From Ensifer adhaerens (GTDB lineage: Bacteria; Pseudomonadota; Alphaproteobacteria; Rhizobiales; Rhizobiaceae), in assembly GCF_001270265.1 (NCBI RefSeq), contig NZ_LGAP01000049.1:1-32167 (forward strand): a DNA stretch of 32,167 nt. Reading direction: 5' to 3'. Both the position numbers and the translations under genes were made by a program. Below, piece after piece: positions 5,302 through 15,777 of this stretch; positions within the stretch are counted from its first letter, which is position 1, and each line of letters opens with the position of its first letter. A model generated the notes under the pieces. The model was not told the DNA's origin, did not search any database, and saw only the letters and a list, made by a program, of their open reading frames with translations.

Positions 5302-5318
5302 GCAGAGTTCAAAGTGCT

Positions 5319-5357
5319 ACAGCGGCCTTTGCGCGTCCAAGGACGCGCGGCGCTGTA
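5319..5357 (-). repeat. Palindromic repeat family A, copy 1
   Basis: A near-palindrome starting ACAGCGGCCTTTGCGCGTCC and ending GGACGCGCGGCGCTGTA, in reverse orientation relative to the copies at 14755, 14934 and 15677. It sits between cobO and the broken EamA gene and could end cobO transcription. It resembles the short mosaic intergenic palindromes of Sinorhizobium. Confidence 0.8.
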
Positions 5358-6145: not shown

Positions 6146-9100
6146 ATTCATTTCCTGCGCGAAGCCGCGTCGCGGCCTTTGTCTGGCCGCTCAGTTCAAA
6201 TCGCGCCGAGTTCGAGCGCGGGGTCCAGAGATTGCGGTCGATCGCCTCCAGCAGCCGCTCGGAAAGCTCGGCGAGTGCCGCCGGGTTCTTGTCGCGCAGG
6301 AAGCTCGACACCCGCTCGTCGACGATGAAGGCCTGGTAGGCAGCCTCGAAATGATGGTCGCGCACCGCACCGGTGGTCGCGGCAAAGGCAAACATGTAGT
6401 CGACCGTCGCGGCAATCTCGAAGGCGCCCTTGTAACCGTGGCGCATGACGCCATCGATCCACTTCGGATTGACGACGCGCGCCCGCACCACGCGGCCGAT
6501 CTCCTCTTCCAGCGAGCGAATGACGGGCTTTTCCGGCCTGGAGTGGTCGTTGTGGTAGATTGCCGGCCGGGCGCCGCTCAGGTGCTGGGCGGCAAGGCTC
6601 ATGCCGCCTTCGAACTGGTAGTAGTCGTCGCTGTCGAGCAGGTCGTGCTCGCGATTGTCTTGGTTCTGCACCACCGCCTCGATCGTGCGCAGCCGCTCCT
6701 CGAACAGGTCGCGCTCGGCCTTGCCCTCCTCGCCGGCGCCATAGGCATAGGCGCCCCAGGTGAGATAGGCGTCGGCGAGATCGGCTTGGCTGTCCCAGCC
6801 CTTCTCGTCGATCAGCGCCTGCAGGCCGGCACCATAGGCTCCAGGCTTGGCGCCGAAGACGCGGTAGGAGGCGCGGCGTGCAGCTTCCTGTGCCTCAACA
6901 CCGGCCGCTTCCAGCCGCTGCGTCTCGGCGCGCATACGCGCGGCGATCATGTTGTCGGCATCGTCTTCCTCAAGCGCGCCGACGGCGCGGATCGCCTTGT
7001 CGAACAGCGCGATCTGATCCGGGAAGGCATCGCGGAAGAAGCCGGAAATGCGCAGCGTCACGTCGACACGCGGCCGCCCGAGCAGCGCCAGCGGCACGAT
7101 TTCGTAGCCCATCACCCGGCGCGAGATCATGCCCCAGCCCGGCTTGGTGCCGATCAGCCCCAGCGCCCGGGCGATATCGTCACCGCCGGTGCGCATGTTC
7201 GCCGTGCCCCAGGCCGTCAGACCGAAGGAAGACGGCCACTCGCCGTGATCCTGCAGATAGCGGCGGATCAGAAGCTCGGCGGATTTCTTGCCGAGTTCGT
7301 AGGCCGCCGGTGTCGGTACCGAACGGCTGTCGACGGAGTAGAAATTGCGGCCGGTCGGCAGCACATCGGGACGGCCGCGGGTCGGCGCGCCGGAAGGCCC
7401 TGGCGCCACGAAGCGGCCATCGAGACCGGGGAGAAAGCCGGTCATTTCGGCAGCGCCGGAATTGACGATCGATGGCTTCAGTCGCGCCTCGATCTCGCTA
7501 AGCACGGCGCTGGTGGCGGACCAGCCCTCGGGCGCCGGCGCCTCCCCGCAAACGAAGGCCGCTGCCAGCAGCTCAATGCGCTCGACCGTATCGCCGGCCG
7601 CGCGCCACGGCGCGTCGGAGATTTCGGCAAGTAGATCTGGGCGTGCGCAAGCCCAGGGATCGGACATCACACAATCGAGCGGGTCGAAGCCGAGCCCGGC
7701 ATCCGTGGCGATCGCCCGCTGCAGGCTCTGGTCGCCGCCTTCGCCAAGGCCACGTGGCACGCGCGCCAGCGCCACCGTCAGGTCGGTTAACAGTCGCCCC
7801 TCCGGCGCAACGCCAAAAATGTGCAGGCCATCGCGGATCTGCATTTCCTTGAGGTCGCAGAGATAGGCGTCGAGCTTTTCCAGCGCCTTGTCGTCGCTGT
7901 CGCCCTTGTCGATGCCGGCGTCGTGATCGAGGCCGATGTCGCGCACGAGGTCGAGGATCTGCCGGCTCAAGAGCCTGAGCCGGCGCGGATCGCCGCCGGC
8001 CGCGTCGTAATATTCGTCAACCAGCGCTTCCAGGTCCTTGAGCGGCCCATAGGATTCCGCCCGGGTCAGTGGCGGGGTCAGATGGTCGATGATGACGGCA
8101 CTGGTGCGGCGCTTGGCCTGCGTGCCTTCGCCGGGATCGTTGACGATGAAGGGATAGACATGCGGCAGCGGCCCAAAAATCACCTCGGGATAACAGGTCT
8201 CCGAAAGCGCTAAGGCCTTGCCGGGCAGCCATTCGAGATTGCCGTGTTTGCCCATGTGCACGATGGCCTGCGCTCCGAACTGATTGCGCAGGAAGGCATA
8301 GAAGGCGAGATAGCCGTGCGGCGGCACCAGATCCGGCGAGTGGTAGCTTTCCTTCGGATCGATGTTGTAGCCGCGCGCCGGCTGGATGCCGACGACGACC
8401 TCGCCGAAGCGGGCGAGCGGCAGCGCGAAGGCGCCGTCGAGGAAGAACGGATCGGTTTCCGGCGCACCCCAGCGGTCGCTGATCTCATCCTGAATCTGTT
8501 TCGGAAGTGAATCGAAGAACGCTTTGTAATCGCTGAGTGAAATGACTTCACGGATCTCGCGGTCACGGCTCGCCGCATTGGTCGGCCCGGCCATGAGAAA
8601 GCGGATCAGCGCGTCGCCATCCTCAGGCACGTCGGCAATGGGATAGCCTTCGCTGGCCATGGAGCGCAGCACTTCGACGGTGCCCGCCGGCGTATCGAGC
8701 CCGACGCCGTTGCCGAGCCTGCCGTCGCGGTTGGGATAATTGGCCATGACGATGGCGATACGGCGCTCGGCCGGCCTGGCGCGGCGCAGCTTCGCCCAAT
8801 TGACCGCAAGCCTTGCGGCAAACCGAACGCGGTCGGAAAGCGGATCATGGCCGACGATATTGGCTTCCACCTTGGGATCGTAGATCGAGGCTGCCTTGAA
8901 GGAGACAGCGCGCGCAAGGATGCGGCCATCGACCTCCGGCAGGGCGACGTTCATGGCGAGGTCGCGTGCCATCAGCCCTTGCGGCGATGCCTGCCACTGC
9001 TCCCGCGACGAGCCGGAAAAAATCACCTGCAGCACCGGCGCGCCGGTCGACTCCAGCACCGTCGGCTGCCGGTCGGCACCGGGAGAAGAGACAGCAAAGC

Positions 9101-9991: not shown

Positions 9992-11056
9992 TTAGGCGAG
10001 CGCAGTGATGGCCGCGCGCACCGCAGCTTCATCCATGTCGTGCAAGCCGATGACGACGAGGCGTGTGCCGCGCTTTTCGCCGTTCGCCCAGGCACGGTCG
10101 TAATACTGGTCGATGCGGGCGCCAACGGCCTGGATCAGGAGCCGCATCGGCTTGCCCGGTACATCGGCAAAGCCCTTGAGCCGCAGCACGTCATGCTTTG
10201 ATATCACGCCCTTGAGGCGATCGATGAAGGCGGCCGGATCGGCGATGGCGCCGAGCTCGACGACGAAGCTGTCGAATTCGTCGTGGTCATGCTCCTCGCC
10301 GGCCTCGTGCTCCATCTCGTGATGAGACTTGCGGTTGGCGATATCGCTTTCCGTGCCGACGCCGAGGCCGAGCAGGATGGCAGCGGCCACTTCGCCGTTC
10401 TTTGCCTCGATCATCGTCGGCTTGCGGCTGGTGCGCGAAGAAACCTCGTCGCGCACGGCCTTCAGGCCGGACGCATCGATCAGGTCGGTCTTGTTGAGCA
10501 CGATCAGGTCGGCGGCGGTCAGCTGGTCCTCGAACAGTTCCTCGATCGGGCTTTCGTGATCGAGATTGTCGTCCTCGACGCGCAGCGCATCGACCTTGTC
10601 ATGGTCGTCGGCAAATCGGCCGGCGGCGACAGCAGCACTGTCGACCACCGTCACAACGCCATCGACGGTCACCTCACTGCGGATATCCGGCCAGTTGAAG
10701 GCGGCGATCAGCGGCTGCGGCAGCGCCAGACCCGAGGTTTCGATGATGATGTGATCGGGGCGATTTTCGCGCTCGAGCAGCTTGGTCATGGTCGGGATGA
10801 AATCATCGGCAACCGTGCAGCAGATGCAGCCATTGGTGAGCTCGATGATGTCGTCCTCCGAGCAGGCTTCCGCGCCGCAGCCCTTCAGCACGTCGCCGTC
10901 GACGCCGAGATCGCCGAACTCGTTGATAATCAGCGCGATGCGCTTGCCATCGGCGTTCTGCAGCAGATTGCGGATCATCGTCGTCTTGCCGGCGCCGAGG
11001 AAGCCGGTGATGACGGTTGCCGGGATCTTGCCGTGGTTGGCTCTCGCAGTGGTCAT
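9992..11056 (-). CDS. cobW: CobW: COG0523 GTPase / cobalt chaperone-like protein
   Basis: G3E-family GTPase (354 aa) required for cobalamin synthesis and thought to deliver cobalt to the chelatase. The P-loop ITGFLGAGKTT is at about residues 16-26, the metal-binding CxCC motif (GCICC) at 76-80, ETSGLALPQP further on, and the G4 motif NKTD in the middle. A His/Glu/Asp-rich segment (HHEMEHEAGEEHDHDEFDSF) around residues 245-265 probably binds metal. The C-terminal CobW_C domain is present (VLRLKGFADVPGKPMRLLIQ). The ATG at 11056 lies 3 bases after the cobP stop, so the two genes are translationally coupled. cobN follows directly, consistent with a metal-handling role for the chelatase. Confidence 0.97.
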   Translation of the reverse strand: MTTARANHGKIPATVITGFLGAGKTTMIRNLLQNADGKRIALIINEFGDLGVDGDVLKGCGAEACSEDDIIELTNGCICCTVADDFIPTMTKLLERENRPDHIIIETSGLALPQPLIAAFNWPDIRSEVTVDGVVTVVDSAAVAAGRFADDHDKVDALRVEDDNLDHESPIEELFEDQLTAADLIVLNKTDLIDASGLKAVRDEVSSRTSRKPTMIEAKNGEVAAAILLGLGVGTESDIANRKSHHEMEHEAGEEHDHDEFDSFVVELGAIADPAAFIDRLKGVISKHDVLRLKGFADVPGKPMRLLIQAVGARIDQYYDRAWANGEKRGTRLVVIGLHDMDEAAVRAAITALA

Positions 11057-11059
11057 GGA

Positions 11060-11584
11060 TCAACCCTTCATTTTCAGCGGCAATCCGGCCGCGACAAAGT
11101 AAACTTCCGCGGATTTCTCCGCAACGATCTGGTGAAGCCGACCGGCATGGTCGCGGAAATCGCGGGCCATGCGGTTCTCGGGCACGATGCCGAGGCCGAC
11201 TTCGTTGGAAACAAGGATGAGGCGCGCCCGCGCCTCAGGCAGAAAGGCGGCAAGGGCAGCGAACTCCGCCGCCATGTCGCGTCCTTCCATCATCAGGTTG
11301 GTGACCCACAGCGTCAGGCAGTCGACGAGCACCACGCGGTTCTCGTCATCGATGTGTGCGAGCAGCGAAACGAGATCGAGCGGTTCTTCATGCGTCGTCC
11401 AGCCTTCGCTGCGCCTTGCCCGGTGATGGTCGATGCGGTCTCGCATCTCGTCATCCCAGGCACGGCCGGTGGCGACATAGTGCATGTTTAGCCCCGAGGC
11501 TTCGACAAGCCTTTCGGAAAAGCTGGATTTGCCGGAACGGGCGCCGCCGAGGACCAGAACCGGCCCCGCATTGGGATTGCTCAT
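11060..11584 (-). CDS. cobP: Bifunctional adenosylcobinamide kinase / adenosylcobinamide-phosphate guanylyltransferase
   Basis: CobP (CobU in enteric bacteria), 174 aa, phosphorylates adenosylcobinamide and then transfers GMP from GTP to give AdoCbi-GDP, the activated form for nucleotide-loop assembly. The P-loop [13 protein letters not shown] is at about residues 12-24. [20 protein letters not shown] carries the His residues used for guanylylation, and [13 protein letters not shown] and [20 protein letters not shown] are diagnostic. It is the first gene after the cobalamin riboswitch and therefore the direct regulated target. The ATG at 11584 is accepted by alignment of the P-loop position with the family; its ribosome binding site is not strong. 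Confidence 0.97.
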
Positions 11585-11740
11585 GGGTGTTGCGGCCTCA
11601 CTACGCCACGAGGGGCAGATTTGTGCAGCAACAGGATTTCACCGCGCCACAGGCGCGTTCGGGAAACGGTCGATGAGCCAAGACAACCTCCGTGATGGCG
11701 TGGGAAGCGGGCTTCCCTTCGGGCGGAATGCCCCTGTCGG

Positions 11741-12165
11741 ACGGCAGGTCTCCTGGCTCACGGCGTCACGAGCCCATTGCATCGTGCCCCGCGCAAAAAC
11801 GCGAAAACCGATGCCTGGGCCCGAACGGCCCGCCTCACCTTCCCGGCGCTTTCCGGTGCCACAGCGAACCTTTGCGCGTCGTCTCCGACGCGCGGCGCTG
11901 TGGGCGGTTTCGTGAAAGGCGGACGATTCGTAGAAGAAGAGGCGTCCAACCCGGCTGATCACGAAGCCACGCCAGTGGCTTTTCCGACTGATTTCCAAAC
12001 CACCTTGATTGCCCCATGCAATCGAAAGGAAGCCGGCCTTCAGCCCGATGGCGAACCCTGACCGTTCTACAGTCGCGGGGTCGGCTGCGATAGGGATGCC
12101 CGATTTGGGTCCATCCGTCACATTCCCAATTATTCCCCCGCATCGCCACGATCCGGGGAAACCAT
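11741..12165 (-). promoter_or_regulatory. Cobalamin riboswitch (expanded) controlling cobP-cobW-cobN-cobO
   Basis: The leader RNA contains the canonical cobalamin aptamer blocks in order: GGGAATAATTGGGAATGTGA near 12140-12120, GCAGCCGACCCCGCGACTGT ending at 12069, GCCACTGGCG near 11979-11970, CGCCGGGAAGG at 11848-11838 and the B12-box GAGCCAGGAGACCTGCC ending at 11743. CTGGCG (11975-11970) pairs with CGCCGG (11848-11843) to close an arm. Adenosylcobalamin binding is expected to block expression of the downstream genes. The aptamer is much longer than usual because this arm encloses 121 bases, including a family A palindrome (11861-11901). A good promoter sits just upstream (12177-12205). The region from 11740 to 11585 is the expression platform. 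Confidence 0.95.
11861..11901 (-). repeat. Palindromic repeat family A, copy 2 (inside the riboswitch arm)
   Basis: On the transcript it runs from ACAGCGCCGCGCGTC to GACGCGCAAAGGTTCGCTGT, 41 bases, matching the repeats at 5319, 14755, 14934 and 15677. It forms its own hairpin and lies within the loop of the arm closed by 11970-11975 and 11843-11848, away from the core motifs. Confidence 0.85.
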
Positions 12166-12176
12166 CCAACATCCGA

Positions 12177-12205
12177 TGATTAGGAAGCGGGCGTCGCAAA
12201 GTCAA
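12177..12205 (-). promoter_or_regulatory. Probable sigma-70-type promoter of the cob operon
   Basis: On the minus strand TTGACT (12205-12200) and TAATCA (12182-12177) are separated by exactly 17 bases. Transcription would start near 12170, immediately before the riboswitch aptamer, which fits well. Confidence 0.65.
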
Positions 12206-14700: not shown

Positions 14701-14754
14701 GCCCCCTTGAGCATTGTCCTCTCAAGCGCCTGCAACCGCTTCGGGCCAAAAACG

Positions 14755-14833
14755 ACAGCGCCGCGCGCCTTATCAGACGCGCAAAGGTCGCTGTAACACC
14801 CCTAGATCGGCTAGGATTTAAGGAACCATGCAG
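14755..14833 (+). repeat. Palindromic repeat family A, copy 3
   Basis: Starts ACAGCGCCGCGCGCCTTATC, continues AGACGCGCAAAGGTCGCTGT and ends in a tail with GGATTTAAGGAACCATGCAG that resembles the tails at 14990-15025 and 15740-15777. It fills part of the gap between the cyclase and methyltransferase genes. Confidence 0.8.
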
Positions 14834-14933
14834 TCGCGCCGGCCACATTTGGTGCCGAATGGCACAATTTTCCGGTTTTCATTTGCTCCGGCAGGACGCG
14901 GTGCAGAACCCTTGAGCGACGCTACAGCGCCAC

Positions 14934-15025
14934 GCGTCAAGTATGACGCGCTAAGGACGCTGCACTCTTTAAACTCGCTGCATAATTCTCTCCTTCAATC
15001 GATTCCGATTTAAGGAATTATGCAG
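14934..15025 (+). repeat. Palindromic repeat family A, copy 4 (long form)
   Basis: Head: ACAGCGCCACGCGTCAAGTA, then TGACGCGCTAAGGACGCTGC. Tail: CTGCATAATTCTCTCCTTCA, then ATCGATTCCGATTTAAGGAA and TTATGCAG. The tail is nearly identical to that of copy 5 and forms an inverted pair (CTGCATAATT / AATTATGCAG). It ends 6 bases before the methyltransferase stop on the opposite strand. Confidence 0.9.
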
Positions 15026-15657: not shown

Positions 15658-15676
15658 CAGGACGCCTGCCTTCCCT

Positions 15677-15777
15677 ACAGTGCCGCGCGTCAAAGATGAC
15701 GCAACAGAAGCTGTAACACTTTAAATTTGCTGCATAATTTTATCCTTGCATCGATTCCGATATAAGGAATTAGGCAG
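15677..15777 (+). repeat. Palindromic repeat family A, copy 5 (long form)
   Basis: Head ACAGTGCCGCGCGTCAAAGA; tail CTGCATAATTTTATCCTTGC, then ATCGATTCCGATATAAGGAA and TTAGGCAG. It has the same orientation as copy 4 and lies immediately upstream of the methyltransferase, so together they are direct repeats flanking that gene. Confidence 0.9.

Follow-up and report, generated by a model that had tools for sequence, protein, structure and literature searches.

Extra segments in riboswitches are a known kind of feature, described as "variable insertions" in the accessible part of PMC2258182, and the excerpted text of PMC2229807 places Rickettsia palindromic elements inside tmRNA and M1 RNA. A MITE review calls MITEs that form riboswitches conceivable and mentions possible T-box motifs in pneumococcal BOX elements (PMC10969869, in excerpt). 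For rhizobia, the available portions of PMC2245857 and PMC2573895 name palindromic elements of meliloti and list, for S. meliloti, a B12 riboswitch ahead of cobP. Among the titles and abstract openings of the open-licence literature, we recognised no earlier report of a mobile repeat inside a metabolite riboswitch. Work on the Rickettsia palindromic elements is said to include that of Ogata et al. from 2002, and the primary paper on RIME elements is reportedly that of Osteras et al. from 1995.

Here we describe a cobalamin riboswitch of the soil bacterium Ensifer adhaerens that contains, in one of its side arms, a copy of a palindromic repeat dispersed over the genome (Table 1). It lies in a window of 32,167 nucleotides, and "the window" always means this whole stretch of analysed DNA. 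As in the Rickettsia case, as far as the excerpt cited above covers it, a mobile palindrome sits in a structured RNA and is apparently tolerated; unlike there, the element is a different one, its host RNA is a riboswitch that senses a metabolite, and a single genus contains alleles both with and without it. Compared to the variable insertions of PMC2258182 (again in its accessible part), the donor of one insertion is identified here, the insertion is polymorphic at the level of a genus, and its site was hit repeatedly.

Table 1. Features of the cobP riboswitch locus and other copies of the dispersed repeat in the window.
Feature	Position	Strand	Basis
cobW (PF02492, PF07683)	9992..11056	-	domain matches
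cobP (CobU family, PF02283)	11060..11584	-	E = 4.1e-63
26-codon leader ORF, TTG start, between riboswitch and cobP	11601..11681	-	ORF reading
GGAGG ribosome-binding-site-like motif, downstream of aptamer	11687..11691	-	sequence
Cobalamin (AdoCbl-type) riboswitch aptamer, upstream of cobP	11741..12181	-	RF00174 partial match, orthologue alignment, core motifs
B12 box GAGCCAGGAGACCTGCC	11743..11759	-	sequence; identical in 16/16 orthologues
Side arm closed by CTGGCG/CGCCGG, containing the insert	11843..11975	-	sequence; helices and covariation in 56 insert-free arms
Insert, 51 nt, first palindrome of the dispersed repeat, on riboswitch strand	11855..11905	-	comparison of 16 orthologues, R1; ends placed to within a few nt
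Apical hairpin of the arm, GGACG-CCTCTTCTTCTACGAAT-CGTCC	11921..11947	-	alignment of arms
Other repeat copy	5311..5357	-	R1, 67.9 bits
Other repeat copy	14754..14802	+	R1, 59.0 bits
Other repeat copy	14923..14970	+	R1, 52.5 bits
Other, diverged repeat copy	15676..15722	+	R1, 35.8 bits

The riboswitch precedes the B12 gene cobP, which is followed by cobW. Core motifs, B12 box, and place upstream of cobP are like those of the RF00174 cobalamin riboswitch, but unlike it, the window locus has an arm enlarged by a mobile repeat and scores below the gathering cut-off of the model (28.1 bits against 31.5), with a match confined to 12033-12181 because the model puts the 3′ half too early. The insert-free orthologue L014 was aligned over the full model (402 nt, 51.0 bits), as was otherwise only L023 (49.7 bits), which is also insert-free, and the cut-off was reached by 7 of the 16 orthologues of the genus. 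Since three further insert-free orthologues (L011, L013, and L021) fall below it as well, RF00174 is defeated by the long side arms and not by the insert alone. All 16 orthologues, L014 and L023 included, share GACCCCGCGACTGTAGAACGGT, AAAAGCCACTGG, CCGGGAAGG, and GAGCCAGGAGACCTGCC as core motifs, letter for letter and in the right order, in agreement with the first-pass annotation of this DNA, which had described core motifs and B12 box as unchanged. The other six cobalamin riboswitches in the genome of the window contain no repeat detectable with R1, the covariance model of the repeat introduced below. Elsewhere in the window, there are group II intron matches to RF02005 (1786-2006, 181.5 bits) and to RF00029 (128-202 on the minus strand, 40.1 bits and thus barely above the cut-off of 40).

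Between the aptamer and cobP, the GGAGG motif and the start of the TTG-initiated leader ORF are kept in 16/16 loci of the genus. The last 4 nt of the leader ORF overlap the start of cobP at L095, L208, and L217. Six loci from other genera use this leader start for an ORF of 57-59 amino acids, the one tested being CbtB. The leader ORF upstream of cobP may be a coupled leader ORF and is perhaps a remnant of cbtB.

R1 represents the first palindrome of the repeat and was built from 29 copies elsewhere in the genome of the window, with the riboswitch copy excluded. It matches the riboswitch copy at 11853-11902 on the minus strand (49.8 bits, E = 2.6e-15) along with the copies that begin at 5311, 14754, 14923, and 15676, as expected from the earlier proposal that the arm holds a repeat with four other copies in the window; the remaining R1 matches there are the same palindromes on the opposite strand and one at 7879-7908 (E = 0.034). 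Genome-wide, the core pattern of the repeat has 66 exact matches versus 0 for a reversed control pattern, and R1 has at least 150 matches. Of seven genomes searched with R1, five gave at least 150 scored matches each, G010 gave 50, and G158 gave 4. Copies in the genome of the window mostly consist of two palindromes over about 106 positions and form a mosaic, with the layout TACAGCGCCGCGCGTC-loop-GACGCGCAAAGG-CGCTGTA, a short spacer, and then a CTGCAT...ATGCAG palindrome. The repeat looks similar to the rhizobial RIME or the AB and C palindromes and may belong with them. Like RIME-like elements of rhizobia, it is a two-palindrome mosaic with many intergenic copies, but unlike this two-palindrome pattern, the riboswitch copy of the window comprises the first palindrome only. 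The same holds across the genus, where matches of the riboswitch copies are confined to positions 1-52 of the 106-position profile and the second palindrome is absent; R1 recognises nine of the ten genus inserts at E ≤ 7.6e-5 and that of G003 at 1.4e-3.

Outside the riboswitch, 30 of the 66 exact-pattern copies were fetched and 20 examined with Rfam; 0 of these 20 loci had a match over the repeat at gathering score, a score that would also miss the cobP riboswitch, and one tRNA was found about 1 kb from a repeat. The copy at 5311 is common to 4 of the 16 genomes of the genus (that of the window, G012, G003, and G013), where it stands directly after ATGAGCCAGAGCTGGCAG; the remaining 12 genomes have the flanks of this site about 11-16 nt apart, and the copy thus appears to have been inserted at the beginning of a gene in these four. 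For the copies at 14754, 14923, and 15676, matches in the same gene gaps of G002 and G012 are candidate counterparts.

Orthologous riboswitches were found by BLAST in all 16 genomes of the genus set, which includes that of the window. Ten of them carry an insert of 49-53 nt at a single site, and six lack it with matching flanks. Accordingly, the distance between the apical GTCC and CCGGGAAGG, which defines the 3′ side of the arm, is 23 nt in G001, G004, G007, G011, G014, and G015 and 72-76 nt in the window, G002, G003, G005, G006, G008, G009, G010, G012, and G013, with hardly any variation in the 5′ side, at 33-34 nt, or in the loop block, at 24 nt. The insert is therefore an insertion and not an ancestral part of the riboswitch, and with an empty site in 6/16 congeners and an unchanged core, the idea that the repeat entered a structured regulator is borne out. 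All ten inserts have the loop TCGGARAYGAC in common, and the loop of the window insert is found in none of the other 65 exact-pattern copies of its genome, suggesting a single insertion origin. The ends vary more than the loop (CCACAG in 6/10), and the insert of G005 is missing 4 nt near its 3′ end. Each side is flanked by a 3-nt ACC/ACY, which is compatible with a target-site duplication without forming a clear one.

The arm that received the insert was already long. The first-pass annotation had it closed by CTGGCG (11975-11970) and CGCCGG (11848-11843, minus strand) around 121 bases, which is exact in the sequence, but its assumption that such an arm normally has a short loop failed: about 70 nt are still enclosed in the six insert-free congeners (33 nt of 5′ side, 24 nt of loop block, and 23 nt of 3′ side), and the arm is of similar length in other genera. 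An insert replacing a short loop is thus excluded, given the long arm of all relatives measured. Likewise, the expectation that strains without the repeat combine identical flanks with a short loop held for the flanks, which match in 6/16, and not for the loop. Covariation was tested on 56 of 87 distinct insert-free arms from the genus of the window, Sinorhizobium, genus g123, and eight other genera. Covariation supports the closing stem and a second helix: 96.6% of cells are paired, 11 of 23 pairs show changes in both partners, and such double changes number 106 cells, compared to a mean of 35.8 after shuffling. The structure itself came from this alignment, which biases the test towards it. 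The covariation score is 0.246 compared to 0.112 after shuffling (0/500 shuffles as high) and to at most 0.066 with partners slid. Little covariation signal comes from the apical hairpin, which is nearly invariant, partly by construction in genomes found by pattern; the 16 genus loci were found by BLAST. The long arm with its two covarying helices is ancestral. In this arm, the insert occupies a linker flanked by the 3′ strands of the second helix and of the closing stem; this linker is unpaired in folds and predicted to span 4-5 nt in L011, L013, L022, L023, and L217. With the closing stem held, all ten inserts are predicted to form a hairpin of their own beside the second helix, at most 0.3 kcal/mol above the free optimum in 6/10 and 2.2-4.1 kcal/mol above it in 4/10; the insert is hence predicted to turn an internal loop into a three-way junction.

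Arms were counted in 108 genomes, comprising the 16 of the window's genus, 33 of Sinorhizobium (g62), 41 of g123, and 18 of eight other genera. Beyond the genus, the search relied on the exact arm-loop pattern, which detected riboswitches in 37/394 genomes of the family, 41/63 of g123, and 33/33 of Sinorhizobium, so that the invariance of the loop is partly by construction and riboswitches with diverged loops were missed. L101 and L102 (genus g113), without the CACTG and GGGAAGG anchors, were excluded from the counts; by eye, a stretch resembling a hairpin and a run of T come after their arm hairpin. A linker insert is present in 12 of the 108 riboswitches. The repeat occupies the linker in 0/33 Sinorhizobium riboswitches and in 1/59 of the other genera, where 40/41 arms of g123 and 18/18 of the eight further genera have no insert. 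It had been proposed as a refuting test that relatives might share an ancestral long arm without resemblance to the genomic repeats: the arm itself is indeed ancestral, but the 51-nt insert of the window is not and matches those repeats. We give next to no credence to the related view that the repeat-like part belongs to this ancestral arm and resembles the genomic repeat by convergence of GC-rich hairpins. The length and ancestry of the arm outside the insert agree with it, but R1 matches the insert at the E-value given above although trained on other copies, and the site is empty in 6/16 congeners, 32/33 Sinorhizobium, and 58/59 other arms, which refutes it; model match and empty sites together also rule out a chance GC-rich hairpin.

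The same linker received other inserts. In G137 (L099, g123), it holds a full-length reversed copy of the repeat (E = 4.5e-21, positions 1-106), and the single Sinorhizobium insert (G476, L199) consists of 36 extra nt with a predicted hairpin. The latter is not a copy of the repeat and was also rejected as a dispersed repeat of another kind, as its 20-base core has one exact match in the genome and the other five matches carry 2-3 mismatches. Another side arm, from GGGAAGG to the B12 box, contains a diverged copy of the repeat in two Sinorhizobium riboswitches, G479/L202 (1353-1401; R1, E = 9.8e-10) and G494/L222 (1356-1401; 3.9e-8), and the same diverged match as in L202 is seen in L095 (Ensifer aridi LMR001). 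Taken together, these matches indicate that members of one repeat family entered side arms of the cobP riboswitch on at least three occasions. Over the 108 riboswitches, no long outliers occur in the P7/P8 segment, the loop block, or the 5′ side, and the 3′ side arm has lengths of 43 to 146 nt. An apparent 5′ core insertion in L219/L229 proved on reading the sequences to be an artefact of the anchor pattern. In genus g46, a search limited to the form with 45-75 nt found it in 0/148 genomes, counted whether or not they have the arm, and copies of the repeat are scarce (4 matches) in the single g46 genome scanned for it. In genus g71, a deeper search returned only the 6 arms already found. With at least 150 copies in 7.5 Mb, most of them expected to be intergenic, one copy in a leader of 440 nt is not improbable, and we therefore infer tolerance of the repeat and claim no attraction.

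Within the genus, the insert is distributed in a patchy manner. On a tree of the rpoB region (built by a quick method), both deep clades hold both states and at least 5 changes are needed, which rejects one clean gain or loss in the genus and makes loss, recombination, or both necessary. The riboswitch tree (with the insert left out) and the cobP-side tree give 5 and 6 changes, respectively, but are less firm than rpoB, since their well-supported branches alone force only 3 and 2. One riboswitch is a mosaic: the P7/P8 segment of G006 (L012) differs by 3.6-5.5% from those of G010, G005, and G002 in the other clade and its 3′ side arm by 27-28%, indicating that recombination within the cobP leader occurs.

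The insert itself changes slowly. In a comparison with fourfold-degenerate sites (10 carriers, about 81-86 cobP sites), its mean divergence between clades is 8.5% versus 25.5% at the cobP sites, and within clades, it is 7.7% versus 17.4%; other segments diverge between clades by 27.5% (P7/P8), 26.5% (3′ side arm), and 5.8% (rest of the arm that holds the insert). Window and G013 show 0 differences over 48 nt of the insert, and G012 is identical as well. Such low divergence argues for constraint or recent exchange rather than long neutral drift. At about one third of the value at the fourfold sites and in the other side segments, it would also be in line with adoption of the insert as a working part of the riboswitch, i.e., a hairpin that stabilises or tunes the arm and is kept by selection where present, as would the occurrence of the insert in 10/16 genomes compared to 4/16 for the 5311 copy, and the 94.4% of its stem cells that still pair. 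We nevertheless consider such adoption unlikely, because six congeners do without the insert, the pairing is no better than in shuffles (93.9%), 0/18 pairs changed on both sides, the outermost pair of the inner helix is broken in 4 of 9 distinct rows, and the copy of G005 is 4 nt short near its 3′ end. Furthermore, the 5311 copy, which is not in a riboswitch, is also similar in the window and G013, where about 50 nt differ by 3 substitutions and 1 indel on a count by eye, and slow change may thus be a property of the repeat itself.

It appears very improbable to us that the insert instead impairs or abolishes the function of the riboswitch and persists because little depends on control of cobP. 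When the arm is folded alone, the probability of the closing stem drops to 0.01-0.12 in 4/10 carriers (window, G012, G003, and G006), compared to 0.79-1.00 in the other six and 0.78-1.00 in six non-carriers, as a weakened switch would predict. However, this prediction is not robust: in full-length folds, the closing stem is at 0.00-0.15 in 5/6 non-carriers and at 0.44-0.80 in three carriers. Misfolding caused by the insert, seen only with the arm alone, was therefore dismissed, and since non-carriers are equally low in full-length folds, we conclude nothing on function from folding, nor on the suggestion of the first-pass annotation that the hairpin could alter folding speed or ligand response. 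The core motifs are moreover unchanged in all ten carriers, the B12 box does not differ among carriers in full-length folds, and their riboswitch branches are not visibly longer (by eye).

The most likely history, in which we have good confidence, is a single insertion of a RIME-like palindrome into a linker of the ancestral arm that left the core untouched and was followed by patchy loss or exchange. A short mobile palindrome of the rhizobial two-palindrome (RIME-like) family would have inserted once, in an ancestor within Ensifer, and landed 3′ in the long arm, in the short unpaired stretch that links its two conserved helices. Being self-complementary, the element would locally form a new side hairpin at the predicted junction and leave helices and core untouched, with all other pairing still possible. 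The switch with the insert presumably still works: as all 16 loci retain the core together with the GGAGG downstream of it, control of cobP is expected to persist, probably at translation start, and the insert would be near-neutral. Several losses or swaps of the allele by recombination would then account for its presence in 10/16 species.

Long nonconserved side hairpins of riboswitches are known, but their origin is rarely seen; here, the donor of one is identified, and the locus exemplifies an inserted mobile hairpin as one source of extra riboswitch arms. It also illustrates why profile searches miss riboswitches with long arms. A wider generalisation seems unlikely at present, namely that riboswitch arms repeatedly arise from mobile palindromes, that the geometry of helices and linkers selects the survivors, and that the Ensifer hairpin is now kept and moves between species by recombination as a module for tuning B12 control. 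Close relatives with and without the insert constitute matched natural pairs for studying whether side arms affect ligand response and folding. Finally, E. adhaerens strains are used in B12 fermentation (PMC10712150, in its accessible part), and variation in the control element of cobP could matter there in practice.
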